Shown in pieces: positions 11,638 through 29,628 of a stretch of 64,000 nt of DNA (its first letter is position 1; each line of letters starts with the position of its first letter). A program made the translations under genes and the position numbers. Source of the DNA: Crystallibacter degradans. Its GTDB lineage: Bacteria; Actinomycetota; Actinomycetes; Actinomycetales; Micrococcaceae. The stretch lies in contig NZ_JABBCH010000007.1 in NCBI RefSeq assembly GCF_012952295.1, forward strand, positions 1 to 64,000, given 5' to 3'. The notes beneath the pieces are model-generated. The model searched no databases. It saw only the letters and a list, made by a program, of their open reading frames with translations, and was not told the DNA's origin.

Positions 11638-12588
11638 CTACTCCCTCGTGATGACGATCTTGCCCGCGGTCCGGCCGGTCTCGCCGAGTCGGTGCGCGTC
11701 GGCGATCCTGCCGAGGGGGAAGGTCTCGGCGATCGTGGCGCGGAGCTGACCGGCCTCTGCCAGCTCGGCGATTGAGCCCAGGTCAGCGCGGGAGGAGTCG
11801 ACGAGCATCCGCACGGCGCGGACGCCCAGCCGCTCCGCTTCGCGGTAGAAGTCGTAGGAGCCCACGGGCAGGATCGAGACGACGATGCCGCCGGGGCGGA
11901 GGGTGCGCAGGGAACGCGTGGAGGTGTCGCCGCCGATGGTGTCGAGGACCGCGTCGACGTCCTTCGCGACCTCGGCGAAGTCCTGGGTGCGGTAGTCGAT
12001 CGCTTCGTCGATGCCCAGGCCGCGCAGGAAGTCGTGCTTGGCCGCGCTGGCGGTGCCGATCACGTACGCTCCGCGGGCCTTGGCGATCTGGACGGCGATG
12101 TGCCCCACGCCGCCGCCGGCCGCGTGGACCAGCACGCGCTGCCCGGGCTGCAGATCCGCGTTCTCGATGAGCGCCTGCCACGCCGTCAGGGAGACCAGCG
12201 GCAGGGCCGCTGCCTGGACGTGGTCGAGCGCGGCGGGCTTCTTCGTGAAGACCCGTGCGGGCGCTGCGACGTACTCCGCGTGTGAGCCGTGACCGAACGG
12301 GTAGGACAGCATTCCGAACACCTCGTCGCCCGGCTGGAAGCGGGCGACGCCGACGCCGACGGCCTCCACTAACCCCGAGACATCCCATCCAAGGACGAAC
12401 GGCGGGTCGCCGAGGAACCCTCCGTTGGCGCGGTGCTTCCAGTCGGTGGGGTTGAGGCTCGCCGCGTGCACGCGCACGAGGACCTCGTTGGTCCGCGGCT
12501 CGGGGCGAGGGATGTCGACAACCTCGAGGACCTCGGGCCCTCCGAGCGAGTTCTGAATGGCGGCTTGCATCGTGGGTTTCAGGTTCAT
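11638..12588 (-). CDS. NADP-dependent MDR oxidoreductase (quinone oxidoreductase-like)
   Basis: This is a 316-residue medium-chain reductase without the structural zinc cysteines. The GroES-like domain (VRVHAASLNPTDWKHR, then GWDVSGLVEAVG) is followed by the Rossmann domain (VLVHAAGGGVGHIAVQIAKARG). It likely reduces quinones or activated double bonds with NADPH. The ATG at 12586-12588 begins MNLKPTMQAAIQ; an upstream in-frame start at 12639 would add basic residues and run into the divergent promoter. It is divergent from a GlxA-type regulator, the usual arrangement for regulator and target. Base composition is clearly GC-richer than the catabolic locus to the left. Confidence 0.9.
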   Translation of the reverse strand: MNLKPTMQAAIQNSLGGPEVLEVVDIPRPEPRTNEVLVRVHAASLNPTDWKHRANGGFLGDPPFVLGWDVSGLVEAVGVGVARFQPGDEVFGMLSYPFGHGSHAEYVAAPARVFTKKPAALDHVQAAALPLVSLTAWQALIENADLQPGQRVLVHAAGGGVGHIAVQIAKARGAYVIGTASAAKHDFLRGLGIDEAIDYRTQDFAEVAKDVDAVLDTIGGDTSTRSLRTLRPGGIVVSILPVGSYDFYREAERLGVRAVRMLVDSSRADLGSIAELAEAGQLRATIAETFPLGRIADAHRLGETGRTAGKIVITRE

Positions 12589-12646
12589 GATCACCACGAT
12601 GCCGGTTCGCCGACGTCGCCGAAATGGCAAGAAAGACACATTTCGA

Positions 12647-12652
12647 TAGAAT
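12647..12652 (+). promoter_or_regulatory. -10 box of a probable leaderless promoter
   Basis: TAGAAT ends 6 nt before the ATG at 12659, which would place transcription start at or near the start codon. No Shine-Dalgarno is present. Leaderless mRNAs with this spacing are common in Actinobacteria. Confidence 0.6.
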
Positions 12653-12658
12653 CATGCC

Positions 12659-13615
12659 ATGACAATGAGGAGACAGCCGCAGCGCGTCGCGGTGCTCGCG
12701 CTCGACGGGGTCTATCCCTTCGAACTCGGCATCCCCAGCCGGATCTTCGAGGCGGTCGGGGGGCTGTACGACGTGTCCACGTGCAGCGTCGACGGGGAGC
12801 CGGTGCGCAGTGCGTCCGACTTCACCATCGGCGTCGAGCACGGCCCCGAACTCCTGGAGACCGCCGACATCGTGGTGATCAGTTCGATCTCGACGCCAGC
12901 TATCCCCGTGGAGCTGCCCGAGGACGTCGCCGCGGCGCTGAAGCGCATCGCCCCGCAGGCGCGCGTCGTCTCGATCTGCACGGGCGCGTTCATCCTGGCC
13001 GCTGCTGGGATGCTGGACGACCGCCGGGCGACCACGCACTGGCAGCTCACCGATCTCTTCCGCCGACGCTTCCCGCACGTCGAACTGGCCCCCGAGGTCC
13101 TCTTCATCGACGACGGGCCGATCCTCACTTCGGCGGGAGCGGCTTCCGGCGTGGACGCATGCCTCCACGTCGTGCGCATGGACCACGGCAGCGAGGTGGC
13201 CAACACGGTCGCGCGCCGCTGCGTCGTCCCGCCGTTCCGCGACGGCGGCCAGGCGCAGTACATCGAGCGGCCCTTGCCGGAGCTCGGGAGCATCGGCACG
13301 GCCCACGCCAGAGACTGGGCACTGGGGCACCTCCGCGATCCCCTCGACCTCAGCACGCTGGCGCGCGTCGCGGGGATGAGTCCGAGGACGTTCTCGCGCC
13401 GGTTCACTGTCGAGGTCGGGGTCAGTCCCGGCAAATGGCTCGTCGGCCAGCGGGTCGCCCAGGCGCAGCGGCTGCTGGAGAGCAGCGACCTCCCGATCGA
13501 CCGGGTCGCCGAAGAGGTCGGATTCGCCACCGGCGCGTCCCTGCGCCAGCACTTCCATGCCGCAATGGGCGTGACGCCCACCGGCTACCGCCAGACCTTC
13601 CACGGCTCCGCTTGA
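12659..13615 (+). CDS. GlxA-type transcriptional regulator (DJ-1/PfpI domain plus AraC helix-turn-helix)
   Basis: This is a 318-residue regulator. Residues 1-about 190 form a class-I glutamine-amidotransferase-like DJ-1/PfpI domain with the nucleophile-elbow cysteine in SICTGAFILAAAG. The last 100 residues carry two AraC-type helix-turn-helices (LARVAGMSPRTFSRRF and IDRVAEEVGFATGASLRQHF). Family members sense small metabolites or reactive compounds through the first domain and activate neighbouring genes. It is divergent from the quinone-oxidoreductase-like gene, its most likely target. Both genes share a distinctly high GC content and lie between two copies of the 18-bp motif, suggesting acquisition as one block. 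Confidence 0.93.
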   Translation: MTMRRQPQRVAVLALDGVYPFELGIPSRIFEAVGGLYDVSTCSVDGEPVRSASDFTIGVEHGPELLETADIVVISSISTPAIPVELPEDVAAALKRIAPQARVVSICTGAFILAAAGMLDDRRATTHWQLTDLFRRRFPHVELAPEVLFIDDGPILTSAGAASGVDACLHVVRMDHGSEVANTVARRCVVPPFRDGGQAQYIERPLPELGSIGTAHARDWALGHLRDPLDLSTLARVAGMSPRTFSRRFTVEVGVSPGKWLVGQRVAQAQRLLESSDLPIDRVAEEVGFATGASLRQHFHAAMGVTPTGYRQTFHGSA

Positions 13616-13772
13616 CCGCTTGGCCGCGAAGACCTCGATGCCTGCTCCGCGCACCATCGACGGTAAGGGCGCTGCGCCCGCGGCAGCCTGACATGCCGGC
13701 GTCATAAATCGAAGATGCGCTAGGACATCTCGATGTCAGGGACTTAGATGACTGGCGTGCGTTCCCTGGTAT

Positions 13773-14221
13773 TCAGCCTTTGTCTGTCGCCGGGGCAACG
13801 ATTTTTTCGTTGCCCCGGAGTTCGGCCAGGTGGTCGTTCGTGCAGAGGTCTGAGGGGGTGACTTTTGCGGTGTCGAGGCCGAGGTACTCTCCGGCCAGGT
13901 GGATGACGTGTTCGGCTCCTTGGTCGCTCATGGCACCCAGGCCGAGGTCGCCCAGCTCGTCGCTGGCCAGGATGGAGCAGACGGCTTCGACGCCGGCCTT
14001 TGAGGCCTCCGGTCCCATTTCGGTGAATCGGAGATGAAGAACGCGCGGGTGGCGTTCCAATGGTCGCTGAGCAGGCCGGAGATTTTGGCTTGACCTGTTG
14101 CGGCTACGACCTCGACATCGCCTGCGGCGAGTCCGGTTCCGAAGTGAATCGGGCACAAAAATAATCTTCGGGAGCCTGGCGAGATCCGGCAAGAACCGCG
14201 CCACTGCAGGCAACTGGACAA
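13773..14221 (-). pseudogene. frame-disrupted remnant of an unrecognised protein
   Basis: On the minus strand a plausible protein sequence runs FGTGLAAGDVEVVAATGQ then KISGLLSDHWNATRAFF in one frame. It continues in another frame as MGPEASKAGVEAVCSILASD, ending at 13773 with EIVAPATDKG. The change of frame near 14025-14040 implies a frameshift. The 3' end contains the hairpin at 13790-13818. I do not recognise the family. It lies in the debris between the GlxA block and the SRPBCC gene and is probably not functional. Confidence 0.4.
13790..13818. terminator. 12-bp perfect hairpin with T loop
   Basis: CCGGGGCAACGA (13790-13801) pairs with TCGTTGCCCCGG (13807-13818) around five T residues. It lacks a clear downstream T tract, so termination is only presumed. 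It overlaps the 3' end of the broken frame at 13773-14221. Confidence 0.45.
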
Positions 14222-14290
14222 TGCCGGACGACGACGGCGCGGGGAGCGTCTGCAAGTGCGTCGAATTCGCGGTCAATACGATTCGCCGGA
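14205..14290 (+). repeat. left copy of a diverged inverted repeat
   Basis: Positions 14230-14290 resemble the reverse complement of 25800-25860 (GTCGAATTCGC, two changes, TCAAT, one change, CGATTCG, then CGG; also GGCGCGGGG upstream). A shorter match TGCAG-CAA continues outward to 14205. By eye about three quarters of positions agree over 60 bp. The pair faces inward around the defence-like cluster and the resolvase gene. Confidence 0.6.
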
Positions 14291-14300
14291 CGTCCGACGT

Positions 14301-14318
14301 ATGCGCCGTTATCGGCGT
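14301..14318 (+). repeat. 18-bp motif, copy 2
   Basis: ATGCGCCGTTATCGGCGT, identical to the copy at 15122 and one base from that at 11174. It lies 10 nt inside the left inverted repeat. The CGCCG-TTAT-CGGCG centre resembles a resolvase crossover site. Confidence 0.75.
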
Positions 14319-14416
14319 TTACACGATTTCTCCGGCCGGGCCTGGTCCTTCTGCCGCACGGCATATCGATCGATAGGGGTTGGAGCGGTGGAGGTGCGTT
14401 TCCGGCAATTTGTTGC

Positions 14417-14929
14417 TTATGGGTCCGGAACAGTATGCGGGGGCCTCTGCCATCGCGTTTCGGCGATTAGCTTGACACGCTGGAGGGTGGAGTTGAGGGT
14501 CTGCCAGTGTTGCTCCTCGATTTGCCGCAAGGCGGACCTGTAAGGGCGGGTGAGCGTGAAGCTGCTGCGCATTTCCAGCCGGGTGCCGACCGTCGTACTT
14601 CTGAGAAAAAAGCTGGTCCGTGCGGAGTTGTCTTCCCCTCCCACGGTCCGCGTAATCGCGTACTCACCTGGGACTTCGTCGACTATTTCGATGGCCTGAA
14701 CCTGTTCACGGCCATCGCGCCGATATATGAACCCCTGTATTTCTCCAATTCCAATAGGGGTTCCGGGGACATGAAAGCTCCGAATCATGGTGGGATCGAA
14801 AAGGACAGCATTCTCGGCAGGTTTGAAGAGATTCCACACTTCCTGCTGAGGTACCGCAATATCCACTGACGCGGATACTTCCCGCAGTTCTTCCCAAGAC
14901 CCAGCTTTGCCTTCACGTCGTCTCATCAC
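14417..14929 (-). CDS. SRPBCC-superfamily protein (polyketide cyclase/ligand-binding fold)
   Basis: This is a 170-residue protein with the START/Bet v1-like pattern: ASVDIAVPQQEVWNLFKPAENAVLF, a central PGTPIGIGEIQGFIY, then EVPGEYAITRTVGG and a long C-terminal helix (RSALRQIEEQHWQTLNSTLQRVKLI). Such proteins bind hydrophobic ligands or act as cyclases and dehydratases. It stands alone, bounded by two copies of the 18-bp motif, with no clear operon partner. An MMRRREG start is used; a shorter version is possible. No specific substrate can be proposed. Confidence 0.8.
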   Translation of the reverse strand: MMRRREGKAGSWEELREVSASVDIAVPQQEVWNLFKPAENAVLFDPTMIRSFHVPGTPIGIGEIQGFIYRRDGREQVQAIEIVDEVPGEYAITRTVGGEDNSARTSFFLRSTTVGTRLEMRSSFTLTRPYRSALRQIEEQHWQTLNSTLQRVKLIAETRWQRPPHTVPDP

Positions 14930-15171
14930 TGCTGGAGTATTACAGAAGCGACCATTTGCTATCCATCAAAGATGGCCCTTTGGATTTCCGACGCTGCCGA
15001 ACCATGCAAGATATGCCCCTGTCTACAACAATTCAGCGCCGGGCCTTTATCCTTCAGCGGGACGGAGATGCGGTGCCACTGCTGGAAGGGGTTGAAGCTG
15101 CCGGGGCGGGGCCACTGTCAGATGCGCCGTTATCGGCGTCTTCCAATGCAGCTGCACAGATGGAGGGTCTT
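14930..15171. other. intergenic stretch with the third 18-bp motif
   Basis: No gene is supported. The only notable element is the motif at 15122-15139. The region may include the promoter of the leftward SRPBCC gene. It lies at the 3' side of the HEPN gene, which ends at 15172. Confidence 0.5.
15122..15139 (+). repeat. 18-bp motif, copy 3
   Basis: ATGCGCCGTTATCGGCGT, identical to copy 2 and in the same orientation 821 bp to its right. It lies 33 bp from the end of the HEPN gene, at the left border of the lower-GC defence-like cluster. Confidence 0.75.
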
Positions 15172-16824
15172 TCATTTCAATAGACGGAAGATCTCCCTAG
15201 CACCGTCTTGGCCAAGCATCGCAATCTCATTGCGCGCCCGGGAAGCTAATGCAAGCGGCGGGACGGGTAATCGGACGTATTGCGCGTGCACGTGCACCAC
15301 TCTGTCGACCCCTGCAGCTACCAGCTTAGGCGCAGATCGAATCGCCGATGCGAGCGAGACGGAGTCAAATTTAGCGGCATGCATAACAAAGTTTCTCTGG
15401 TAGTACAGACGTCGGAAGACATCCTTGAAGTACCCTTCAATACGTGCAATGGTCCCAGCTGGATCCGCATCGATTTGAAGAACGCGCTCCGCGGACGCTC
15501 TATCTTCGAGGTGAAGGAACATGTTACTGCCATGCTCCTTCAGACTATCGAGTAACGTGCGGGCCTTGTCTGACCCTTGGGCTTTTTCAAGAGATTGTTT
15601 TAGACCGCTGTCTAAGATTTCCTGACGTATTTCCTTGCGAAGAAGATCCTCCAATTCAGCGCGAGGGAAACTGCATGCAACAACAGCTGCCAATCCGTCC
15701 GCAGCATCGATGCCAGCCGCCCCAGGGTGACCCAGCAGACCTTCGACAGCAGCCCACAGCATAGCTACCGATGCAACTGAAGAAAGATCTCTCACTGAAG
15801 ATAAGAGTCCCAACGCGTTATCTAGCTGAGCATCGAGAGTGTCAGTGTAGAGACTGTGCCGATCCAATGAAGGAACGATCATGGGCTTGGTCCCGAAATA
15901 GAAGTCTCGAAGTTTTTTGTTTGTGCGATCAAGGACGATAGGACTGAACCCGAGCGCTCTGGTGACACCACGACCCACCGTCGCCCGCTGTTCGATCTTC
16001 ATCAGTCGCTCATGAAGTTTTGAAGTTGCCGCGTGTGGATCTCTCGCTTGAAAGCTGAGTTCTATAACTGCTGCTGAATCTTGCGAGACAATCCTATGGA
16101 AGACGTTGGCTTTGGGGCCAGCATTGGGAATTTTAGAAGCTTCTTCACGGAACTCATCAATGTCCAAAAGCAAGTTTTGAAGGCTAGCTACCTCACGGGC
16201 ACGGTTTCCGGATTGAATAGGTACTGCGAATGAATAGGTATTTTCAGGTTCGCGGCACATTTCGTGACCGCGCAGAATGACCGTTTCAAGGGCCTTTGCG
16301 GTCGTGGTCGCAAGAGTAGCCTTGAGAAAACCATGTAGGTGTTTTCCATCAAATCCGTCGTCCAACATGTGCGTCAGTACTAGCCTGGCTGTCTGTTCGA
16401 CAGTTCCAGATGTGAGCTCAGCAGTAGCGACGTGAGTATTCCAACGGCTTAGATAATCACGGCTGGCCCTTAGCGCGAGCTCTTCAATTTCTGTAGTCAG
16501 CACGATTCCGGCAGATTTAGGAAGTGTCTTTTTTGGCGGCGCCAGTAGCTCCAACTTTTGCGCCAGGAGGTCCCGTACGGCTTGAGCTCCGATTCCTACA
16601 TCCGCGGACACCTGGCTTCGACAGCGCTCCGAAACGTACTCGAGAGCGTGAGAAGAGTTGATGGCGCCACTCCATGTAGCTTGTGCACACTCAAGGACTT
16701 CGCGAACTGACTGAATTGTTCCTAACTGCCAGAGCGATCGATTCCAAGGCGAGCGGACGTCGATTAGTTCGATCATCCTCAGGACGACCGTCTCTTGGAG
16801 GGTGTTTTGTTGTGCGACGTTCAT
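15172..16824 (-). CDS. HEPN-motif protein associated with the TerB/ATPase/helicase operon
   Basis: This is a 550-residue, mostly helical protein of no family I can name with certainty. The C-terminal quarter resembles Apea-like HEPN domains: an acidic helix with WAAVEGLL (357-364), a variable helical insert, and YYQRNFVMHA, giving the R-x4-H HEPN motif at R477/H482. HEPN proteins with this motif are often metal-independent RNases used as effectors in abortive infection and toxin systems. The N-terminal 350 residues show no recognised motif and may sense or regulate. GAGGA lies about 10 nt before the ATG. It is downstream of, and in the same direction as, the helicase gene, separated by a hairpin. 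Codon use and GC are lower than in host core genes. The effector role is inference. Confidence 0.75.
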   Translation of the reverse strand: MNVAQQNTLQETVVLRMIELIDVRSPWNRSLWQLGTIQSVREVLECAQATWSGAINSSHALEYVSERCRSQVSADVGIGAQAVRDLLAQKLELLAPPKKTLPKSAGIVLTTEIEELALRASRDYLSRWNTHVATAELTSGTVEQTARLVLTHMLDDGFDGKHLHGFLKATLATTTAKALETVILRGHEMCREPENTYSFAVPIQSGNRAREVASLQNLLLDIDEFREEASKIPNAGPKANVFHRIVSQDSAAVIELSFQARDPHAATSKLHERLMKIEQRATVGRGVTRALGFSPIVLDRTNKKLRDFYFGTKPMIVPSLDRHSLYTDTLDAQLDNALGLLSSVRDLSSVASVAMLWAAVEGLLGHPGAAGIDAADGLAAVVACSFPRAELEDLLRKEIRQEILDSGLKQSLEKAQGSDKARTLLDSLKEHGSNMFLHLEDRASAERVLQIDADPAGTIARIEGYFKDVFRRLYYQRNFVMHAAKFDSVSLASAIRSAPKLVAAGVDRVVHVHAQYVRLPVPPLALASRARNEIAMLGQDGAREIFRLLK

Positions 16825-16866
16825 CCTATATAGTCCTCACTAAGGCCATTGCCTAAAGATCTGACA

Positions 16867-16898
16867 GACGGGAGCCGCCCTTTGGGGCCGCTCCCGTC
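16867..16898. terminator. hairpin between helicase and HEPN genes
   Basis: GACGGGAGC (16867-16875) pairs with GCTCCCGTC (16890-16898), and an inner GCCC/GGGC stem extends it. A TTTA follows on the plus strand and no clean T tract on the minus strand. It may attenuate read-through from the helicase operon into the HEPN gene. Confidence 0.55.
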
Positions 16899-16994
16899 TT
16901 TACCTAACTGACTCAGCTGCATTCAGCCTATCCACGATTCACGAGTGTGTTCTGTTGCGGAGAACCAGTACTAGGTTGGATGACCCATGTGAGG

Positions 16995-19910
16995 TCAAAA
17001 CGGTGCTTCAGTAGGCATGCCTCTGCCGGAGGGCGAGTGCGACACCGGAAAAGGAAGAGCGGCGAAAAGATCCGAACCGCCAAGTTCGTTGCTTCTTGCC
17101 AAGTAGGCCATTAATACCTGTGCCGTTGCTGTCGCATCGGCCAGTGCGGTATGTGCCTCTCCTGCTTCTATGTTCAGTCTTTTGCAGATTTCGGCAAGCG
17201 TGGCGGGCTGGCCCGGATCGAATTGCTTGCTTAGCTGCATGGTGCACAGTGTGGGCCAAGAGGGGGCCTGCACTCCGGCGCGTTCGAATTCGCTGGTTAG
17301 GAAGCTGATATCGAAAGCAGCGTTATGGGCTACTACCACGGCTCCAGCTAGCTGTTGGGCGATTTCGTCCAGCACATCGGCAAATCGAGGAGCGGAAACA
17401 ACATCGTCAGGGTGGATTCCATGGATATGGACTGGTCCGGTCGATTGATCCGGATTGATTAGCGTTGACCAGGTGCTGTCGATGACCCCTGCCGCGTCGA
17501 GCCGGACGATCGCGATTTCCACGATCCGATTTTTTTGTGCGGAGAATCCTGTTGTCTCGACATCCACGACGGCGAAAGGCGCCGTACCACGTTCAATCGA
17601 GGGGTTGTAAAGAGGGAAGTACATACTCTCCGGGACAGGAACTGCTGAACTCTCAGGGTGGGCGCCAGACGCTTCAGCGAGGCGTCGAAGTACCGGCCAG
17701 GTCGTGTCGACGTCGAGGGAACTTGCCGCGTAGGACAGGGTGAGCAGGTCATCGTCCAGATACATGTCATGCTTGTCCCTGCTTTTCACAGCGACGTTTT
17801 TTGCCAGAGCGGCTGGTTCTGGTGTTTCCGACCCTGCGAGTTGCCTTAGCAGGCTGCCCAATTGTTGAGGTGATGTCTTCCGCAGATTCAAAGCCACGCC
17901 ATCGAGACTTACGTCGAGATCAGATGCCGTGAGCAGAACATGCAGGGTGTTCATGATCCGGTCACCGGCCCAGGGGAAGAGGATCGTGTCCTCGCCCCAT
18001 GTAATTAGCGGTTGCTTTGCCAGATTCATTCTCTTGTATGCGGCCCTTCCCTCGGACAGCAGGGTTTGTGCGCTGTGGTCGAGGTAGGCGGGAACATCGT
18101 CTTCTTCATATAGACGACGCATCCGCTGGCGTATGCCGTCGGCGATCACAGCGCCACCGCCGGAAAAGGCCGGAGGTCTTCCGCCACGGGCTTGGGCGAG
18201 GTCAATTACTTTGTTGGCTGCGTCTACGTGCAGGACGCGCCAGCGCCGCCCGGCGAAAATCAGAAGATTTCCTTCGATAACGGGGTGGTCGATAGGGATG
18301 GATCCAAGGGTGCGCCCGGAGGTGATGAGGCGGTACTCCTCAGTGGATTGGAAGGCGCTGTAGAAGCTGTAGTGATTGATGAGCCGCTCGCCAACGCTCC
18401 CTGGAAGTAGTGTTCCATCCGAGGCCTGCATGAGGAGGTCTTCCTCGCCCAGTCTCCGAAGCAGTCTGACGAACATGGGCCGGTCGACGTGGTTGAAAGG
18501 TCCCGCCTCGCAAAGGGCGCTGTAAATTTCAGCCGCAGTTGCGCCTCCGTGCTGGGCTATCACGGACAGCACTTGTTGGATCAGCGTTGAGAGGTGTAGC
18601 CCATTGGTGTTCGGCGGTTCGTACCATCTTTCAAGCAGCAACTCTACGGTCGCCACGATCTCGAACGTCTGGGCACGGAGCTGGTCCACGGGAGGTGTCC
18701 GGTGATCCACGGTATCCTCCGAAACATATAGCCGGAGCGTGGCGGCGCCTCCCCGCCGTCCTGAGCGGCCGAGTCGTTGCCTAAGCGCCGAAACGCTGCC
18801 GGGGGACCCTATCTGGGCGACCGTGTCGGCCGTTCCGATGTCAATGCCCATTTCAAGTGTCGACGTGCAGACCGCGGTGGCGGGCGTCCCCGGAACCCGG
18901 AGCCGGGACTCAACGTCCTCGCGGAATTCCTTGGACAGATTCCCATGGTGGGGGAAGAATTCATTGGCTACGCGGTTGCGATCGCTGATTTGTTTGAGGA
19001 GGTCAGCGTAGGTCTCTACGTTGGCGCGTGAATTTGCGAAGACCAGATTGTCCTGACCGCGAAGATTCCGGAAGAGGTGTTCCGCGATGGCTTTTTTGTC
19101 AACACCAGCATCACATTCTTCCTCAGCGGCCGCATGGGCCGGGTCGGGGCTGGAGCCGATGTAGCCGCGCAGCTGCATGCGCAATTCTGCTTTGTCATCG
19201 CTGTCTTCACCGATCAGGTGAACAGAGGCTCCCTGTTTTGGGCGCAGGAACTCCGCCGCGACGGACAGGTCGGCCAACGTGGCTGAGAGTCCGATGCGCG
19301 GGATTCTACGCCGGAGAGCGAGTTCAACCCGGTGCAGCAGGGATTGGAGTTGTGCTCCCCGTTCGGTTCCGATGAAGGAGTGCATCTCGTCGATCACAAT
19401 GTACTGAAGCCCGTTCAGTATCCCCGGAAGGCGGGTTCCTTGGGTGATGAACATGGCTTCGAGGGACTCCGGCGTGATAAGCAGCAGGCCGTCAGGTGTT
19501 TCCCGCAGGGCCCTGCGGGCGCCCCCGGTAACGTCGCCGTGGCGGCGGTGTACCGGGATGTTGATGCTTTCGGCCAGACTTCCAAGCCGCTCGTATTGGT
19601 CGTTGATCAAGGCTTTCAGCGGTGAGAGGTAAAGTGCCTTGACGCCGGACGGCAGCGGGCCGTTGTCCTGTTGCTGGGCTAACGCGGACAGGATTGGTAG
19701 CCACGCCGCTTCGGTTTTGCCGCTGGCGGTGGCGGCACTGATGATGACGTCGGTGTCCCCCCGCAGGATGGGATCCACTGCTTCCGCCTGGGTTGAGCGC
19801 AGCTGTTGCCACTTCTGGGCCCAGATCCAAGCCTGGATGTGCTTGTGCAGGCGTGCGAACGCAGTTGCAGGAGCGTTCACTTCGTCAGAGTTTGAAGACC
19901 GAAAGATCAT
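16995..19910 (-). CDS. Lhr-like superfamily-II helicase fused to a C-terminal DEDDh exonuclease
   Basis: This is a 971-residue protein from the ATG at 19908-19910 (ATGs at 19922 and 20006 are possible; the latter adds a Pro-rich leader that only mirrors the overlapping gene). The helicase part has Walker A ATASGKTEA (60-68), TPESLEAMF, DEMH (174-177), SAT (209-211), STLEMGIDIG and QRLGRSGRRG, the arrangement of Lhr-type helicases and BREX type 2 BrxHI. A winged-helix and Lhr-like middle follows. The last 190 residues are a DnaQ-type exonuclease: DVET (D783, E785), HNAAFD (D867) and HTALAD (H920, D925), a full DEDDh set. It should unwind and degrade 3' ends. Its 5' end overlaps the ATPase gene by 26 nt. 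Third gene of the TerB-ATPase-helicase operon. Confidence 0.9.
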   Translation of the reverse strand: MIFRSSNSDEVNAPATAFARLHKHIQAWIWAQKWQQLRSTQAEAVDPILRGDTDVIISAATASGKTEAAWLPILSALAQQQDNGPLPSGVKALYLSPLKALINDQYERLGSLAESINIPVHRRHGDVTGGARRALRETPDGLLLITPESLEAMFITQGTRLPGILNGLQYIVIDEMHSFIGTERGAQLQSLLHRVELALRRRIPRIGLSATLADLSVAAEFLRPKQGASVHLIGEDSDDKAELRMQLRGYIGSSPDPAHAAAEEECDAGVDKKAIAEHLFRNLRGQDNLVFANSRANVETYADLLKQISDRNRVANEFFPHHGNLSKEFREDVESRLRVPGTPATAVCTSTLEMGIDIGTADTVAQIGSPGSVSALRQRLGRSGRRGGAATLRLYVSEDTVDHRTPPVDQLRAQTFEIVATVELLLERWYEPPNTNGLHLSTLIQQVLSVIAQHGGATAAEIYSALCEAGPFNHVDRPMFVRLLRRLGEEDLLMQASDGTLLPGSVGERLINHYSFYSAFQSTEEYRLITSGRTLGSIPIDHPVIEGNLLIFAGRRWRVLHVDAANKVIDLAQARGGRPPAFSGGGAVIADGIRQRMRRLYEEDDVPAYLDHSAQTLLSEGRAAYKRMNLAKQPLITWGEDTILFPWAGDRIMNTLHVLLTASDLDVSLDGVALNLRKTSPQQLGSLLRQLAGSETPEPAALAKNVAVKSRDKHDMYLDDDLLTLSYAASSLDVDTTWPVLRRLAEASGAHPESSAVPVPESMYFPLYNPSIERGTAPFAVVDVETTGFSAQKNRIVEIAIVRLDAAGVIDSTWSTLINPDQSTGPVHIHGIHPDDVVSAPRFADVLDEIAQQLAGAVVVAHNAAFDISFLTSEFERAGVQAPSWPTLCTMQLSKQFDPGQPATLAEICKRLNIEAGEAHTALADATATAQVLMAYLARSNELGGSDLFAALPFPVSHSPSGRGMPTEAPF

Positions 19911-21297
19911 CGTCGCCGGCATCGTTCGGGGGATTCGGAATCTGGGTCTGGACGCCGGCGGATCCGGTTGCGGGTGGCTCTGCGACGTTCCGGGCTGCCG
20001 ATTCACCGCCGTGGTCAGGGAGCTTCAGCGGTGCGAGATCCGGGTTCGATTCTCGCTCGAGCGTGACGCCGGAAAGCAGGTCCTGCCACCTTTGTTCGGG
20101 GTTCTGCTCCAGCACTGCCAGAAGGTCCAGGAAGCCCTTGATCGTGTTGCGGGGCGTCCGGAAATAAGCGTCTCCAATGCGTTCGGCACAGTGGTTCATA
20201 TACTCAGCGATACCCTCGTCGCTGATGAGATATGCTGATTCGTCCCCGGCAGCCTGCACATGTCTGAGCTTGGTGAGCAAGACATAGAAGTCTTCCGGCG
20301 TCAGGCTGGCCAGGCGCAGCACTGGTCCCGAGTAGTCCACGAGTCCATCGACCGCGTAGCTGTTCTCTTCCAAGCGTGATTGCAGAGCAGCGTATGAATA
20401 GAGTCCACGGCGCGGATCGAGGAGGAAATCGGGGGTCCCGCCAAATATGAACCCCAGCCCCGACGCTGATCCCTGGGTCGAGTCATTCAGGATCCTCAGG
20501 ATCTGCTCGTAGTTCGAATTGCGGGCCTGGCTGTTTGCCAGTTTGTAAAGATTCACCATCTCGTCCAAGCAAATGAGGATCCCGCCGAAGCCGGCAAGAC
20601 GGACGAACCGTGCCAGGAGCTTGAGCTGGTCGTAGAAATTGGCGTCGTCCACGATGGTTCGCACGCCCAGAGCGATGCGCGCGTCGGTTCGGGTGGTAAA
20701 TTCTCCGCGCAGCCATCGGACGGCGTCCGACTTGAGCTGTTCGTTACCGCTGTCGTGTCCCTGCCAGTACTTGGCGACGACTTCTGCGAAGTCATAACCG
20801 CCGGTGAGTTCGGAGAGCTCGTCCAGGTTCCGGCGGAGGATATCTTCTACGGCCTCGCCGGAGGTGCGGGATTCGGTCAGTGCATGGGTGACGAAGCGCT
20901 CGACAACGCTGGACATTGCTCCGCCGTCGGGTTTGGCACGGGTGGACATGTTCCGCATCAGCTCCGAATACAGGCTCCGGGCCTGCCCGCCGGTGGCGTG
21001 CAGACGCCGATCAGGGGACAAATCGGCGTGGACCGTGACGAGCTTTTGTTGGAGGGCGATGGAGCGGACAACGTGAAGGAAGAAGGTTTTGCCTGATCCG
21101 TAGTCGCCGATGATGAAGCGGCTTCCGGAGCCACCGTCATTGATACGGCTGATATCTGAGAGCAGGGCCTGGACTTCGTTGGCCCGTCCTACCTGGACAT
21201 GCTGCTGGCCCAGCCGTGGGACCACACCGGCGCGCAGGGACTGAAGGAGCGAGTCGCGTTCACGAGGCCGGATGGTGGCGAGCGAAGACGTGGTCAT
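19885..21297 (-). CDS. BrxD/DUF2791-like P-loop ATPase
   Basis: This is a 470-residue STAND/ORC-like ATPase. GSRFIIGDYGSGKTFFLHVV contains Walker A (64-71) and LICLDEMVNL gives Walker B (D245, E246); IFGGTPDFL follows like a sensor motif. This set matches the DUF2791/BrxD group of BREX type 2 and related DNA-processing systems, where the ATPase is paired with an Lhr-like helicase. The ATG overlaps the TerB-protein stop as ATGA, and the 3' end overlaps the helicase gene, so the three products are made in coupled amounts. The tail (about 60 residues, Pro/Gly/Asp rich) is likely disordered. Probably an NTP-driven loader or switch for the helicase. Confidence 0.88.
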   Translation of the reverse strand: MTTSSLATIRPRERDSLLQSLRAGVVPRLGQQHVQVGRANEVQALLSDISRINDGGSGSRFIIGDYGSGKTFFLHVVRSIALQQKLVTVHADLSPDRRLHATGGQARSLYSELMRNMSTRAKPDGGAMSSVVERFVTHALTESRTSGEAVEDILRRNLDELSELTGGYDFAEVVAKYWQGHDSGNEQLKSDAVRWLRGEFTTRTDARIALGVRTIVDDANFYDQLKLLARFVRLAGFGGILICLDEMVNLYKLANSQARNSNYEQILRILNDSTQGSASGLGFIFGGTPDFLLDPRRGLYSYAALQSRLEENSYAVDGLVDYSGPVLRLASLTPEDFYVLLTKLRHVQAAGDESAYLISDEGIAEYMNHCAERIGDAYFRTPRNTIKGFLDLLAVLEQNPEQRWQDLLSGVTLERESNPDLAPLKLPDHGGESAARNVAEPPATGSAGVQTQIPNPPNDAGDDDLSVFKL

Positions 21298-24200
21298 GAA
21301 AGAAGCTCCTGTAGGGCATAGGCGTTGACTGTTAAGGTTTCCTCGCCTTCGATGAGGGGCTCGTCGGAGGCTTCAAATGCTGCTTCATTCAGGGTGTCCA
21401 AGGCGCCCTCAGGAAGGAGGCCGTGCAGGGCGGCCAGATCCTGAAATTCATTCCAGCCGAGTTGTTCCATCCCTACCAAGGCATGCACGACCATCGAATG
21501 TGCCGGGTCGAGACCGCCAACTGCGTCGGCCGGCGAGAACTGCTCTTGCGCAACTCCAGGCTCGGATTCTTCCGGTGCTTCTATGTTGGCTGTGGGCTCT
21601 TGCTTTTGTAGGTCTTCGTCGAAGATTCGTATCAGTAGATGAGATACCGCAGCGGTCTCTGCCATTTTTGCCTGGATGACCGTGGGGTCCAGGGCAAACC
21701 CGCTCCCGGTCTTGGCTGGGGAGGCGACGGAACCTGCCGGGCGCGGAGGTATCGGGTAGCCGGCATCCGCCTCTCCTGCCGGGCGAACCGTCACGGGCTG
21801 CGTCGCTGGGCTTGATCCGGCAGCCATCACGGCATGGATTTTGCTTGAAACCGTTGAGCTATCGAGGCCGAGCAGCTTATAGATCTTCTGCAAAGTGGTG
21901 ACCTCAGCAGGCGCAATATGTCCGTCGGCAGCAGCCAAGGTGACAAGCATGTCCGCCAGCGATGCCCTTTGGGTATCCGTGAGACCGGTGAGGCGTTTGG
22001 TAAGGCCCGTCAGTTTCACCTCTGTCGCCCCAAGCCACTGCAGATGTGCTTGCAGGCGGGTTCGTTCAGGAACTGTCAGCTGCAGGGATGATTCCAGATG
22101 GGCCGTAAGATGATCCAGCTCCGCGGGAGCGACATGTCCGTCCGCGGCGGTTACAGCCGCTGCCAAATGCACCATCGTTAATGCGGTGCTGTAGGCCGGC
22201 GTCGGTGAGTGCGGGCTGCCGGGCTGACTGCGGAACAGGAAAACAGGAGCCTCGGCCGCAATCGTGGGGCCCCCGAACCGGACATCAGGCTCCATACCTG
22301 CACCAAGGCTGGCCAATAGTGTGGCCAGGTTTACCGTGTCCGGTTTGCTGAGCTTGTCGGCACTCCCGGAAGGCCAGTGGTCAAAGAGCTCCGCCCCGGA
22401 AAGCAGCGCAGTATCGGATGCCGCAAGTTTTCCCGACACCCAGTCCCGGAAATCACGGACCGCTCCCGTGTCTTCGGCGATCAGGTCCGGCGGTAGTAGT
22501 GCAGCGGCTGCCAGGGTTCCACCCCTGTCCGGGTTACGCCCCAGCCACCGGCTGTAAGAGTCCAATTCTGCCGTAACTTCCTCAAACAGCGCGGAGAGTT
22601 TCTTGACCGGTGCCTGCTGCGCAAACACATCCGGTATGTGACTCATGGTCAAGTCCACCGAACCAATTTGGGAGCTCGCCGTCCGGTAGTTGAGTTTCAT
22701 CCTGGATTTTCCCGGCCTGACTGTAAAACCTTCCGCGTATTTCTGTCTGTATCTGATGTGGAACAAGCGCGTAAATTCCTGCGGGCAGCGGGTGACCGGA
22801 GTTCTAACCGTTATCTCGGGATGGAACCACGCCCATGCAAGCGCCCACTCTGCCGGGACCGGCGTACCATCGGCGGCAAGATCGCCCAGCTGGACCTTAA
22901 GACCGATGGGAACGAGCCATCGAGACTCCGTCAACGCCGGAGGTTGGGCAGGAGCTGCAGTCGGCGCCTGCAGCATAAGGAAGTCGATAGCATCAAGGAA
23001 CTGGGACGCATAGCTGGAGAATGAGCCGCTGCTATCGCCGTATAAGCGGAGCAGGTCAACCATCTCGGCGCGGATCTGTACAAGTTCTCCTGCCAGCTCC
23101 GGCTGGGCCGCGATATCGACAAGGACGCGCCGTTCGAGCCCGTACATAAATAAGAAGACATAGCCGATCGGGATGTCCGGGATCCTTCGCCCCTGGGCGA
23201 GCCAGCCGAGGTAGGCGGCTCTTCCCGCTGCGGTAATTTCCGCGTAAGACGGCCAATAGCCCAGGCACTGCCCGGACCAGTCCGGGTTTTGCAAGTCGAT
23301 GCGAAGCGAAGGATTGATGAGTGAAGGCTCGGTGCCGCCGCGAGGCGACGAGAGCGTTCTGCCGGCATAGACCATCCCGGGCACCCGGAGCTCCCGGTCA
23401 ACCTGAACCGACTCGTTTTGCCCGTACCACCGCGCCTTGTCCAAGGAGCCAGCTTTGGGTCGCGGTGCCCCACCTGCAGGTGCGCTGCCCTTAACGTCTT
23501 CTTGCCTGCCCGACACCGTGGAATCCAGCGGCATCGATTGAGAACCGGGATACAGAGCCGCCGGCGGCGTGACTGGCATCGTGTCCCCGCCGGCACGGCC
23601 TCGTTCGGGGAGGGCTGAGCGGCCCCGCAATTGCGCAGCGAAATCCTTGGCTGAATCCGTCTGCGACAGTTGAAGAATCCAGCGGAAACCCGAGGACGTC
23701 GTCAGCAGAACGTCCATATATCTCATGACGGGCAGAACGGGATTGTTCTTGAAACGGCGATCCGGCCCGCCTTGCTTGTTCACGTACTGCCAGGTCGTGC
23801 CAACCTGAATGCCATCCGAAGGAACAGCTCCGGGAGACTCAATAAATTCGATGTCCCGCTCAAGAACCTGCAAGGCGTCGTAGCCGAAGTCAGTGAACAT
23901 CCCCTTTTCGGCGACCAGAATGCGGTCAGGCAGAAAGTAGATCGAGGAGTGACCTGAGGTTACCCCTGGCACCGCGATGTTAGTGACCAGCTCCTTGGGG
24001 CCTTGATCGGAGAACGAGGCGCCCGCCCTCCGAACCAGTGATCCGGCACCCGCGTTAACCTTCTGCTGGTGGCCCCCGTTGAGAGACCCTGATTCATTCA
24101 CCCGCCAAAGCCCCTTCGACTGTGCCACATACTGCCCGGCATCAACGAGAGACTGAAAGCGTTGCGCATATTCGTCGTCGACGTCATAAAAAACGACTGC

Positions 24201-24674
24201 CGAATTCCGTGCCCGGTCTGACAGGACAGCCCACCAAACCAGCGGTACTCCTAGAAGGAATACAAAGAAACCAAAGGGCATCGTCACCAACCCCAGCAGA
24301 AGAATTGCAAGTACGACCCAACGGGTCAGCGGCTTCCGCCTCGAGGCGCCATTAAGCTGTGACACGAGGTCATCCGAGGACGTTGGCAGGAGCGTCTGGA
24401 TGCTGGCCCCTGTCTGATCTTCAAAAATGACGTCGGACGATGTTGAAGCCGGTGGGGCAAGGTGTGCGGAATCGTAACGGTCATATGCCGGAGATTGCCC
24501 TTTGCCGAGACTGGCCTGATAGTAGACGCCGCCGGCGCCCATACGAACAAGGTTCCCGCGGGGACCCGATCCGATACGGAAACCGGGAACCCCGGCGCTC
24601 ACGCCTACTCCTGACCCGGTCAAATTGAATCTAAACGGGCCAGCCTTCAGGCTCTTCCGAACATAAAACCCCAC
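21294..24674 (-). CDS. DUF4236-transmembrane-TerB_N/TerB/TerB_C protein
   Basis: This is a 1126-residue multidomain protein with a GTG start. Residues 1-about 52 are a DUF4236 head (GFYVRKSLKAGPFRFNL, GVPGFRIGSGPRGN). Residues 119-151 are strongly hydrophobic (one or two membrane passes). A PH-like or globular region follows to about 345, then a disordered linker. From about 415, WYGQNESV to IGYVFLFMYGLERRVL (503-517) is TerB_N. Two TerB-like acidic helical repeats follow (VTAADGHVAPAELDHL and LAAADGHIAPAEVTTL, metal-binding DGH motifs). The C-terminal 150 residues fit TerB_C. TerB modules bind divalent metal at the membrane in tellurite/phage-stress systems. First gene of the leftward operon; probably the membrane-linked sensor for the ATPase and helicase. 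Confidence 0.88.
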   Translation of the reverse strand: MGFYVRKSLKAGPFRFNLTGSGVGVSAGVPGFRIGSGPRGNLVRMGAGGVYYQASLGKGQSPAYDRYDSAHLAPPASTSSDVIFEDQTGASIQTLLPTSSDDLVSQLNGASRRKPLTRWVVLAILLLGLVTMPFGFFVFLLGVPLVWWAVLSDRARNSAVVFYDVDDEYAQRFQSLVDAGQYVAQSKGLWRVNESGSLNGGHQQKVNAGAGSLVRRAGASFSDQGPKELVTNIAVPGVTSGHSSIYFLPDRILVAEKGMFTDFGYDALQVLERDIEFIESPGAVPSDGIQVGTTWQYVNKQGGPDRRFKNNPVLPVMRYMDVLLTTSSGFRWILQLSQTDSAKDFAAQLRGRSALPERGRAGGDTMPVTPPAALYPGSQSMPLDSTVSGRQEDVKGSAPAGGAPRPKAGSLDKARWYGQNESVQVDRELRVPGMVYAGRTLSSPRGGTEPSLINPSLRIDLQNPDWSGQCLGYWPSYAEITAAGRAAYLGWLAQGRRIPDIPIGYVFLFMYGLERRVLVDIAAQPELAGELVQIRAEMVDLLRLYGDSSGSFSSYASQFLDAIDFLMLQAPTAAPAQPPALTESRWLVPIGLKVQLGDLAADGTPVPAEWALAWAWFHPEITVRTPVTRCPQEFTRLFHIRYRQKYAEGFTVRPGKSRMKLNYRTASSQIGSVDLTMSHIPDVFAQQAPVKKLSALFEEVTAELDSYSRWLGRNPDRGGTLAAAALLPPDLIAEDTGAVRDFRDWVSGKLAASDTALLSGAELFDHWPSGSADKLSKPDTVNLATLLASLGAGMEPDVRFGGPTIAAEAPVFLFRSQPGSPHSPTPAYSTALTMVHLAAAVTAADGHVAPAELDHLTAHLESSLQLTVPERTRLQAHLQWLGATEVKLTGLTKRLTGLTDTQRASLADMLVTLAAADGHIAPAEVTTLQKIYKLLGLDSSTVSSKIHAVMAAGSSPATQPVTVRPAGEADAGYPIPPRPAGSVASPAKTGSGFALDPTVIQAKMAETAAVSHLLIRIFDEDLQKQEPTANIEAPEESEPGVAQEQFSPADAVGGLDPAHSMVVHALVGMEQLGWNEFQDLAALHGLLPEGALDTLNEAAFEASDEPLIEGEETLTVNAYALQELLS

Positions 24675-25115
24675 TATTGCCCCCCAGTGTAGATAGCACT
24701 GGTACGACCTCCCGATCGAACCGAGGTGCCATATTGTCGACGCCAGCTGAGACTCTTCTTCAACTGGGCGCGCGATCGGTCAGCGGGCGAAGAAAAGGAA
24801 GCAGTCGCAGTTGTAGGCAGACGATGAAACCTTTTCCCAGCATACGATCTTTCCCCTCGATTCGGACCAACAGCCGGCTGCCCATACGGACGGTGGTCAA
24901 TGCGCGATGAGGTTCTTGCGTCTCAGCTAGGGGTCACTTTTGAGGCAAGGTGTTCGTCCTAGGAAAGGATCGTTTATCTGGACGGGACCGACGTCGGACT
25001 TCCCAGCCAATCAGTCCCCGTATTCGCGGGACATGCTACGTCTCATCAATATGTCTCACCGCTGCTATTCTCAACAAACAAATTAGTCAGTCTTTGATGA
25101 AACCAGGAAAGCTGC
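24675..25115. other. divergent intergenic region between the TerB operon and the resolvase gene
   Basis: No gene is supported in these 441 bp. It must hold the promoter of the leftward TerB operon and that of the resolvase. GTCTCA occurs three times (24920, 25040, 25053), the last as ATGTCTCACC, reminiscent of Tn3-type resolvase half-sites that begin TGTCY. A palindrome ACCGACGTCGG-like element lies near 24986. These could form a res site, but the match is weak. Confidence 0.4.
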
Positions 25116-25694
25116 ATGGGAAACATCGGATATGCCCGGGTCAGCACCGTTGACCAAAACGTCGACCTGCAGCATGAAGCCCTAAAGGCTGCGGGTTGCA
25201 GACGGATCTTCACCGACCATGGCGTGAGCGGAACGCGCTCTAGCCGGCCCGAACTTGACCGGATGCTTGACCACTTACGCGAAGGCGACGAGGTGGTCGT
25301 TTGGAAGCTTGACAGGCTGGGCCGCAACACGAGAAACCTGCTGGCCTTGATCGATGAGCTGGAGGGCCGGGGCGTGCACTTCAGATCACTGACCGAGGGC
25401 ATTACAACCGCAGGGGCCATGGGTCGAGCCATGCTCACCGTCATGTCCGCGTTTGCCCAACTGGAACGCGACCAGTTGTCCGAGCGGACCCGGGCAGGAA
25501 TGACCGCGGCCGCCGCCCACGGACGAAGGGCCGGACGGCGGGAAATCACCGCTGATGCCAAGGTCAGGCGAGTCCTCGAGCTGAAGGCCCAAGGCCTCAA
25601 GCCCGCTGACATCGGCAAGATCATCGGCGCCAGCCGCGCCACTGTCTACCGCTACCTGAGCCTGGACCTGGACCTGAACCTGGAAACAGCCTAA
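25116..25694 (+). CDS. Tn3-type serine resolvase/invertase
   Basis: This is a 192-residue small serine recombinase of complete length. It has the nucleophile region IGYARVSTVDQN, VVWKLDRLGRN, the long E helix (MLTVMSAFAQLERDQLSERTRAGM) and a C-terminal helix-turn-helix (GLKPADIGKIIGASRATVYRYL). It cuts and rejoins DNA at a res-type site through a 5'-phosphoserine bond. AGGAAAG lies upstream of the ATG. No Tn3 transposase is in the window, so it is an orphan. It sits at the right edge of the defence-like cluster, near the right inverted repeat and before a core gene, and probably mobilised or rearranged this region. Confidence 0.93.
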   Translation: MGNIGYARVSTVDQNVDLQHEALKAAGCRRIFTDHGVSGTRSSRPELDRMLDHLREGDEVVVWKLDRLGRNTRNLLALIDELEGRGVHFRSLTEGITTAGAMGRAMLTVMSAFAQLERDQLSERTRAGMTAAAAHGRRAGRREITADAKVRRVLELKAQGLKPADIGKIIGASRATVYRYLSLDLDLNLETA

Positions 25695-25733
25695 CGGTGA
25701 GAGTTCCCGCGACTGGTTTTTCGCGGGTCACCG
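25695..25733 (+). terminator. two-tier hairpin after the resolvase gene
   Basis: CCCGCGA (25706-25712) pairs with TCGCGGG (25721-25727) over a T-rich loop. The outer arms CGGTGA (25695-25700) and TCACCG (25728-25733) also pair. It begins right after the TAA of the resolvase gene. Confidence 0.6.
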
Positions 25734-25799
25734 CTCTGGATTTCGTACCCGTAGGCACGAATAGTTCGGAACCGAATATGCACGCTTACCAGTAAGAAA

Positions 25800-25885
25800 C
25801 CGACGAATCGCATTGAGGGCGAATTCGACGGATTGGTGCACTCTTCCCCCGCGCCATCGACAATGGCGGCACTTGCTGCACCGTC
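25800..25885 (-). repeat. right copy of the diverged inverted repeat
   Basis: Read on the minus strand from 25860 to 25800 it aligns with 14230-14290 (shared GGCGCGGGG, GTCGAATTCGC and CGATTCG blocks). The surrounding 25734-26035 holds no supported gene. Weak coding similarity (VEFALNAIRR versus VEFAVNTIRR) suggests that both copies may be ends of the same decayed gene or element. Confidence 0.6.
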
Positions 25886-26035
25886 CGTAAAAGCAAACCC
25901 ACCCGACTGACTTCATCACTTGTCACGCCGCCGGGCTGCTCGGATGCTCCTCTGCCGCAATTCAGCGGTCACAAAACGGGGTTCGACTGGTACGTTGGCT
26001 CCATAGATGCCGCAAGCTGATGGAAGAGGACAACG

Positions 26036-27724: not shown

Positions 27725-27776
27725 GCAAGTCCGGACGACGGAGGGTGGTGGCGGCGGATCAGGCGCCTCCGGGTCA

Positions 27777-27842
27777 GCGAAGCCGAAGTTGGGCGGGAAG
27801 ACCCGTGCTGCTCAGGCGAAGCCGAAGATGGGCGGGAAGACC
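27777..27842 (+). repeat. 27-bp direct repeat at the 3' end of the permease-prefix gene
   Basis: Copies at 27777-27803 and 27816-27842 differ at one base. The second lies in the last codons of the leftward membrane-protein gene (its PPIFGFA end), and the first lies beyond its stop. It is a local duplication of the gene's 3' end. Confidence 0.75.
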
Positions 27843-29164: not shown

Positions 29165-29523
29165 GCCCACCCTTCGATCACGGCGGGCGGTCGCTGGGCG
29201 CTCTGCCACACCTGCCGCAGGGCGTCCGCCACGACCGTCCACTGCTCCTGCCGGTCCGCGAGGGCATCCCGACCCGTCGGGGTGATCGCGTAGTGCTTGC
29301 GCCGTCGTCCGGCTTCGGAGGTGCCCCAGGACGACGACACGTAGCCGAGCCGCTCGAGCCGGTGGAGCAGCGGGTAGAGCATCCCGTCGGTCCACTGCAT
29401 GCCGCCGCCGGACAGCTCGCTCACGCGCTTGATGATCGCGTAGCCGTACAGATCGCCCTCCGACAGAATCCCCAGCACGAGCGGGGTGGCCGAAGCGGCG
29501 ACCAGGTCCTTATCGATGCGCAC
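29161..29523 (-). CDS. PadR-family transcriptional regulator
   Basis: This is a 120-residue PadR regulator. It has the winged helix (VLGILSEGDLYGYAIIKRVSELSGGGMQWTDGMLYPLLHRLE, with the family's GxLYPLLHRLE signature), the wing YVSSSWGTSEAGRRRKHYAITPTGR and a short C-terminal dimer helix. The GTG start follows GGGAGG by 5 nt. It is the first gene of a two-gene operon with the permease-prefix protein and probably represses it. The perfect 9-bp inverted repeat directly upstream (29535-29577) is the likely autoregulatory operator. Confidence 0.95.
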   Translation of the reverse strand: MRIDKDLVAASATPLVLGILSEGDLYGYAIIKRVSELSGGGMQWTDGMLYPLLHRLERLGYVSSSWGTSEAGRRRKHYAITPTGRDALADRQEQWTVVADALRQVWQSAQRPPAVIEGWA

Positions 29524-29534
29524 GTGCGCCTCCC

Positions 29535-29577
29535 ATACCTAGATCTACAATGCATCAACCATAGCAGTTCTAGGTAT
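29535..29577. promoter_or_regulatory. inverted repeat, candidate PadR operator
   Basis: ATACCTAGA (29535-29543) and TCTAGGTAT (29569-29577) form a perfect 9-bp inverted repeat, centres about 34 bp apart, spanning the promoter of the PadR operon. Spacing near three helical turns suits a dimeric or looped repressor. Confidence 0.65.
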
Positions 29578-29628
29578 AGCTGCCGGGTTTCGGCGCGGCG
29601 GGTTTGAGGCGGGCTCGGCCTCGCAAGT

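Follow-up and report, generated by a model that had tools for sequence, protein, structure and literature searches.

A Shango operon of Crystallibacter degradans with a predicted DEDDh exonuclease domain at the C-terminus of its SngC helicase

The operon and its helicase–exonuclease gene

We describe a three-gene operon on the reverse strand of a 64,000-nucleotide stretch of DNA (the window) from Crystallibacter degradans (assembly GCF_012952295.1, contig NZ_JABBCH010000007.1). By its profile matches, this operon is the known anti-phage system Shango, complete with SngA, SngB and SngC, all three matched in operon order. Its last product, SngC, is a superfamily-2 (SF2) helicase that, according to domain profiles and structural models, is extended by a C-terminal DEDDh exonuclease domain on a flexible linker. 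The features are given below, with residues numbered in the 1003-residue form of the protein.

16995..20006 (−): SngC helicase–exonuclease fusion gene (open reading frame, Pfam, PADLOC; annotation of plasmid pLDW-10)
17688..19865 (−): SngC-type SF2 helicase part, residues 48–773 (PADLOC SngC, E 4.5e-277; AlphaFold model)
17571..17687 (−): helicase–exonuclease linker, approximately residues 774–812, predicted to be disordered (low model confidence; substitution rates)
17112..17570 (−): predicted DEDDh 3′–5′ exonuclease domain, residues 813–965 (PF00929, E 2.7e-29; AlphaFold; Foldseek matches 8zef and 2gui)
17556..17564 (−): putative catalytic D815 and E817, motif DVET (conserved in 9 of 9 fused SngC proteins; alignments)
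17310..17312 (−): putative catalytic D899, motif HNAAFD (D in 8 of 9 fused SngC proteins, E in that of Lentzea, L023; alignment)
17136..17153 (−): putative catalytic H952 and D957, motif HTALAD (9 of 9 fused SngC proteins; alignments)
19885..21297 (−): SngB, BrxC/BrxD-type ATPase (PF10923, E 3.2e-150; SngB, E 2.9e-179)
21294..24674 (−): SngA, with DUF4236, TerB_N, TerB and TerB_C domains (Pfam; SngA, E 9.7e-93)
17044..25004 (−): Shango cassette, the block shared with pLDW-10 at about 96% DNA identity (DNA comparison)

The sngC gene is a single unbroken open reading frame (ORF) that specifies 1003 residues from a GTG start or 971 from the ATG at 19910; subtracting 32 converts the numbering of the first form to that of the second. 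The annotation of plasmid pLDW-10 of A. crystallopoietes has a 971-residue gene in this position (coding sequence of 2913 bases). A frameshift or assembly artefact as the source of the fusion is ruled out, since the fusion recurs in one open frame in this complete plasmid and in seven other SngC proteins from independent genomes.

The PADLOC SngC model covers residues 48–773 almost completely (model positions 4–717 of 720) with a score of 919.5 bits (E 4.5e-277), as against 395.6 bits for BrxHI, a gap of 524 bits, and 229 bits for the ligase-associated DEXH helicase. The models that we take to represent the Lhr type remain far under their cut-offs: TIGR04121 at 229 of 850 bits, PRK13767 at 198 of 849 and PRK09751 at 115 of 1496. 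The class name “Lhr-like/BrxHI”, given to the helicase in an earlier sequence-only reading, must therefore be abandoned in favour of SngC, the closest profile by far. The DinG/XPD architecture, with an N-terminal exonuclease, was not found in this protein, where the best stretches of the DinG models fall at residues 809–975, that is, in the C-terminal exonuclease. In structure, the full-length AlphaFold model is closest to Lhr of M. smegmatis (5v9x), which the SF2 core resembles most, then to MrfA (6znp), with RNA helicases, among them Brr2, ranking after these. SngC shares a group with BrxHI, DruE and DpdJ in a published tree (PMC12278908).

The sequence-only reading had also placed the fusion next to genes for a DUF2791 (BrxC/D-type) ATPase and a TerB protein, and both are indeed there. 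The sngB ORF lies directly upstream of sngC and overlaps its start; its product scores below the BrxD equivalog cut-off (134 versus 350 bits). The first gene of the operon is sngA, in the product of which DUF4236 occupies the N-terminal position. No BREX core gene (such as PglZ, PglX, BrxC or BrxL) was detected among the six proteins of 15172–27724 that were scanned. The three genes are assigned to Shango because SngC is so clearly the closest profile for the helicase. Shango is a three-gene system consisting of a TerB protein, an ATPase and a helicase, and restricts phages in P. aeruginosa, where the PA14 operon acted on many phages modestly, 10–100-fold (PMC10250203). By analogy with other Shango operons, the only ones for which protection has been demonstrated (PMC10250203), the operon in the window may protect its host against phages.

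The exonuclease domain

The Pfam RNase_T profile (PF00929) spans residues 813–965 end to end (positions 2–164 of 164; E 2.7e-29; 103 bits versus a cut-off of 24). The same part of the protein is matched by the PADLOC DEDDh model (E 9.4e-40) and by PRK06063 of NCBIfam, “DEDDh family exonuclease” (E 1.8e-46, yet below the cut-off of that equivalog). With such E-values, chance similarity is excluded. The best PADLOC score for the exonuclease part is obtained with PDC-S48 (E 1.1e-68), the match being to the N-terminal part of that model.

A DEDDh exonuclease at the C-terminus of the helicase, with D783, E785, D867, H920 and D925 (971-residue form) as its catalytic set, is what had been proposed from the letters alone, and the domain search and the intact catalytic set both bear it out. 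The five residues, D815, E817, D899, H952 and D957 in the 1003-residue form, are all present in the motif pattern DxE, HNxxFD, HxAxxD, and they align with D, E, D, H and D of the epsilon subunit of E. coli DNA polymerase III (Pol III). Across 60 aligned exonucleases, four of them (D815, E817, H952 and D957; alignment columns D16, E18, H153 and D158) are invariant, while D899 (column D100) is conserved in at least 90%, a figure partly built in because many alignment rows were found with a pattern demanding AHN..F[DE], which leaves the other four residues unaffected. The set is complete in eight of the nine fused SngC proteins. One alignment, which looked misaligned for phage exonucleases, was not used.

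The fold expected at residues 780–950 (971-residue form), RNase-H-like, is present in the models. AlphaFold predicted the exonuclease alone, from the 60-sequence alignment, with a mean predicted local distance difference test score (pLDDT) of 87 and a predicted template modelling score (pTM) of 0.83; ten-residue block means range from 90 to 98 across residues 11–170 of that model. The top Foldseek matches are DinG of S. aureus (SaDinG) bound to single-stranded DNA (8zef, 1.7 Å) and Pol III epsilon (2gui, 1.5 Å). In the full-length model, the helicase is mostly confident up to about residue 750 and the linker drops below a pLDDT of 50 at residues 752–776 and 789–794 (all in the 971-residue form); the exonuclease is less confident there, as is to be expected from an alignment with only four fused rows. 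Alignment and fold together suggest a regular active-site geometry, and the domain is predicted to be a metal-dependent 3′–5′ exonuclease.

That this exonuclease would act on RNA (phage transcripts, R-loops or primers) instead of DNA is quite unlikely in our estimation. RNase T and the ERI-type exoribonucleases, both of the DEDDh class, do figure among its matches, and the Pfam profile of the Rv2179c-like exoribonucleases recognises it at 30.8 bits (cut-off 27), but DNA enzymes (SaDinG, Pol III epsilon and PolC) match it best, and the helicase model is nearest to the DNA helicases Lhr and MrfA, although RNA helicases come next.

Distribution, origin and mobility of the fusion

The main SngC survey consists of 96 rows (78 from genome contigs, five viral and 13 others, including the distant outgroup L122) and is biased toward likeness to the window SngC. 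Helicases under 250 bits were dropped (L002, L003, L004, L106), and seven rows were excluded: L001 and L009 (the window itself), L013 (the same protein as L010), L102, L103 and L039 (99–100% identical to L101 or L038), and L029, in which the helicase match ends at position 624 of 731. Nine rows carry the exonuclease and one carries an ADP-ribosylglycohydrolase; in the other 86, no more than 44 residues follow the helicase match. Most of the relatives surveyed thus lack the fusion, in line with the sequence-only reading.

By source, three of 80 SngC loci on genome contigs are fused (L019, Nocardioides; L023, Lentzea; L076, Rhodobacter capsulatus), a share that is not an unbiased frequency, as the scan kept, out of 563 confirmed stretches, the 80 that most resembled the query. 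None of eight viral loci, one of them with a distant helicase (L106), has the exonuclease. The protein is matched by 702 plasmid records at E 1e-40, three of which cover at least 80% of it, all with the exonuclease (A. crystallopoietes, Nonomuraea gerenzanensis and Rhodobacter xanthinilyticus); the exonuclease is absent from three further plasmid SngC proteins, and with six of the 702 records examined, fusions to very different domains elsewhere could be missed. Among whole genomes, SngC occurs in four of 295 from the family (three with the fusion, at E 1e-60), in five of 297 from the order (two with the fusion, at E 1e-80; one of the remaining three, G700, is distant) and in two of 396 from the phylum (both with the fusion, at E 1e-100), the window being counted among the fused each time. 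The Klebsiella-type sngC, of 2196 bp, is found whole in E. coli, with a DNA match in 688 of 5426 genomes that extends over at least 80% of its length in 449.

The search for a stand-alone exonuclease replacing the fusion beside an ordinary SngC (60-sequence profile, 100 loci, 1.8 Mb) gave no result. Non-fused exonucleases at E <1e-6 occur in six of those loci (L129, L021, L014, L038, its near-copy L039, and L135), which we presume to be about the background rate for such common enzymes; no enrichment is claimed. In L129 (10722–12023), the ORF of a free DEDDh exonuclease, which falls in the same “DVETAN” tree group as the Rhodobacter fusions, starts 0.65 kb downstream of an actinobacterial sngC that has no fusion. 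In L021 (12434–18529), an ORF of 2032 codons starts 0.17 kb downstream of an unfused Amycolatopsis sngC; its product has a weak N-terminal exonuclease-like match, a DinG-type Helicase_C_2 domain and a second DEAD helicase that resembles RecQ by eye. Both arrangements could be due to chance.

Other C-terminal extensions were seen. The ADP-ribosylglycohydrolase (PF03747, E 5e-74) belongs to a Silanimonas metagenome-assembled genome (L045, 10001–14185), where SngC runs in frame into some 300 unassigned residues and then into this domain: a second kind of C-terminal SngC fusion, observed once. The fused proteins of L107 and L019 have about 110–140 additional residues after the exonuclease, which match nothing in Pfam and look like a TerB-like bundle by eye; in L124, an exonuclease from a plasmid, a TerB match below threshold precedes the BRCT domain.

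In the helicase tree, fused proteins appear in two places, seven of them in a 13-row actinobacterial group and the two from Rhodobacter in an alphaproteobacterial one; a quick method gives a minimum of five changes between the fused and unfused states. The exonuclease tree was built from 43 sequences, eleven of 54 having been left out as near-copies or partial; repeat copies of a locus and matches below 25 bits or 120 residues had already been set aside when the sequences were collected. In this tree, the Rhodobacter domains group with stand-alone exonucleases of Rhodobacterales plasmids. They share 53–60% identity with exonucleases in 13 other plasmid records, which we assign to Rhodobacterales; in the two Rhodobacterales plasmids examined (L127 and L128), there is no Shango beside the exonuclease. 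The actinobacterial domains mostly group with stand-alone actinobacterial enzymes, with support just short of full (94/96).

A single ancient fusion for all nine SngC proteins was rejected by the approximately unbiased test (p = 2.1e-7). As far as these trees tell, the exonuclease has thus been acquired at least twice, in Actinomycetota and in Rhodobacter, from different DEDDh subfamilies. A common origin of the seven actinobacterial exonucleases was not rejected (p = 0.36), so that both a single gain followed by losses and several gains fit within Actinomycetota. One actinobacterial SngC nested among fused kin (L012) ends at the canonical position, and its 18-kb locus (L131) holds no exonuclease match.

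We compared the ratio of nonsynonymous to synonymous substitution rates (dN/dS) for the helicase, exonuclease and linker, respectively. It amounts to 0.14, 0.22 and 0.78 between the window and A. crystallopoietes (L010), to 0.129, 0.089 and 0.65 between the window and L011, and to 0.103, 0.097 and 0.40 between the two Rhodobacter proteins. With overall values of 0.07–0.22 for the exonuclease and 0.40–0.78 for the linker, the exonuclease is, by this measure, under purifying selection and would therefore be kept functional in both lineages, with the linker loosely constrained. Within the same gene, synonymous divergence (dS) is higher in the exonuclease than in the helicase: 0.22 versus 0.053 for the window and A. 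crystallopoietes (Fisher p = 4e-6) and 1.04 versus 0.35 for the Rhodobacter pair (Fisher p = 5e-9), both tests being run on rounded counts. This points to recombination in the 3′-terminal part of sngC; a higher local substitution rate is a possible alternative.

The operon, exonuclease included, looks like a cassette, because an operon-bounded block is all that matches pLDW-10 in the compared stretch: no other matching block was found at E 1e-10 within the 18 kb of 12001–30000. This pLDW-10 is a complete plasmid typed as conjugative. A serine resolvase gene (25116–25694, +) lies just past the edge of the shared block, and pLDW-10 also has a recombinase gene near Shango, which hints at how the cassette could move. 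It is very unlikely, in our judgement, that the operon is instead a host or plasmid DNA-repair machine. Close analogues combining a helicase with a 3′–5′ exonuclease, namely MrfAB and exonuclease-bearing DinG, do work in repair (PMC12345164; preprint PMC12458937), but all three genes score far ahead with the Shango models, phages are restricted by Shango in P. aeruginosa (PMC10250203), the operon is scattered (SngC in those four of 295 genomes in the family), and the block shared by two genomes is bounded by the operon.

On the other side, 170 bp downstream of sngC, is a gene for a 550-residue protein (15172–16824, −) without a match at E 0.001 in Pfam, PADLOC or NCBIfam. Its relatives, at 25–28% identity, occur in 17 plasmid records, mostly actinobacterial, and three of the 15 listed bear the label “integrase”; the stretch RNFVMH at its end recalls, we presume, HEPN domains. 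Among the loci scanned, it stands beside Shango only in the window’s own genome.

A tethered exonuclease in Shango defence

The operon shares with described Shango systems its three genes, their order and profile matches, the TerB_N/TerB/TerB_C domains of SngA and a BrxC/D-type SngB; the difference lies in SngC, which in the window continues past the helicase for 230 residues with the DEDDh exonuclease, whereas the 720-position PADLOC model and the SngC of Klebsiella and some E. coli plasmids (2196 bp) end after the helicase. The system is thus already known, the exonuclease-armed helicase would be a variant of it, and other helicase families offer precedents for the architecture. No description of an SngC–exonuclease fusion was found in the open-access library searched, which did not cover the founding Shango paper or a TerB survey.

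Among these precedents, MrfAB likewise pairs an SF2 DNA helicase with a 3′–5′ exonuclease, and MrfA is the second-best structural match of full-length SngC; it differs in helicase family (the window SngC lacks a DUF1998 match) and in being a repair operon. MrfAB is not known to have a TerB or a BrxD partner. Fusions to homologues of MrfB/YprB occur in some YprA helicases, and C-terminal nuclease fusions are frequent in that family (preprint PMC12458937). DnaQ–DinG of S. aureus and B. subtilis also unites a DEDDh exonuclease and an SF2 helicase in one polypeptide and provides the best structural match of the exonuclease (8zef), but there the exonuclease is N-terminal, and the DinG helicase runs 5′–3′ and acts in crosslink repair (PMC12345164). 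Lhr and BrxHI resemble SngC in the SF2 core and are set apart by the Lhr-type scores far under cut-off and by the lack of BREX genes among the scanned neighbours. We know of no exonuclease in either family.

We lean towards the reading that this Shango has a SngC that gained a tethered C-terminal DEDDh 3′–5′ exonuclease, which would degrade the 3′ DNA ends exposed by the helicase. Operon membership, motifs, predicted fold, purifying selection and at least two acquisitions make up its established part, as far as sequences and models go. “Unwinds and degrades” in one polypeptide is plausible by analogy: Lhr is a 3′-to-5′ helicase (PMC11323726), the 3′–5′ helicase MrfA works with the 3′–5′ exonuclease MrfB (preprint PMC12458937), and SaDinG requires both exonuclease and helicase for crosslink repair (PMC12345164). 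SngA, through its TerB domains, and the SngB ATPase might recruit or license SngC on phage DNA, sensing or loading by these two being a guess. SngC would then move 3′ to 5′ along one strand, as its structural relatives Lhr and MrfA do, while the tethered exonuclease, following on the same strand, would digest its freed 3′ end. Unwinding could thereby turn into a permanent loss, either of one strand or of the 3′ primer ends on which phage replication depends. Shango without the exonuclease presumably uses helicase action alone, a host nuclease or an unrecognised nuclease in SngA.

Several observations weigh against the tethered exonuclease as a DNA-degrading arm of the system. The 86 of 96 surveyed SngC proteins without any extra domain indicate that Shango as such can work without the exonuclease, and the six unfused members of the 13-row actinobacterial clade (seven are fused) that the fusion is easily lost or gained. 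In the fused Lentzea SngC (L023), E replaces D at the third catalytic position, that of D899 (motif HNLPFE), and this exonuclease may be weakened or impaired. Synonymous sites of the exonuclease are saturated in the comparison with L011 (dS 2.9–3.9), the unsaturated pairs giving dN/dS values of 0.22 and 0.10. Finally, DEDDh domains include RNases, and sequence alone does not decide between DNA and RNA.

The patchiness of the fusion (nine of 96 rows overall, seven of 13 in the actinobacterial clade), canonical-length proteins among fused kin such as L012, whose locus is devoid of an exonuclease match, and the D-to-E change in L023 would also suit an optional end-trimming passenger with little effect on defence, which improves or regulates SngC in some hosts by clearing its product or by stopping re-annealing. 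Set against this are the dN/dS of 0.07–0.22, the retention of all five catalytic residues in eight of nine fused proteins and the independent recruitment in two phyla, and we regard such a passenger as rather improbable.

If, as we favour, the exonuclease takes part in defence, a further proposition, tentative and on balance doubtful, is that Shango is a sensor–motor platform, with the C-terminus of SngC as an exchangeable effector slot into which DEDDh subfamilies (and once an ADP-ribosylglycohydrolase) were plugged independently. Fused lineages would then kill phage replication by coupled unwinding and 3′–5′ digestion, and the faster-changing exonuclease could be a diversifying arm in the arms race with phages.

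The passages of the literature examined contain no account of how Shango stops phages. That an exonuclease was fused to SngC at least twice points to exposed 3′ DNA ends as the product or the target of SngC. In the fused protein, the contributions of helicase and nuclease would be separable by single point mutations. The fusion thus offers a handle on a poorly understood system and hints at how phage DNA may be destroyed by it.

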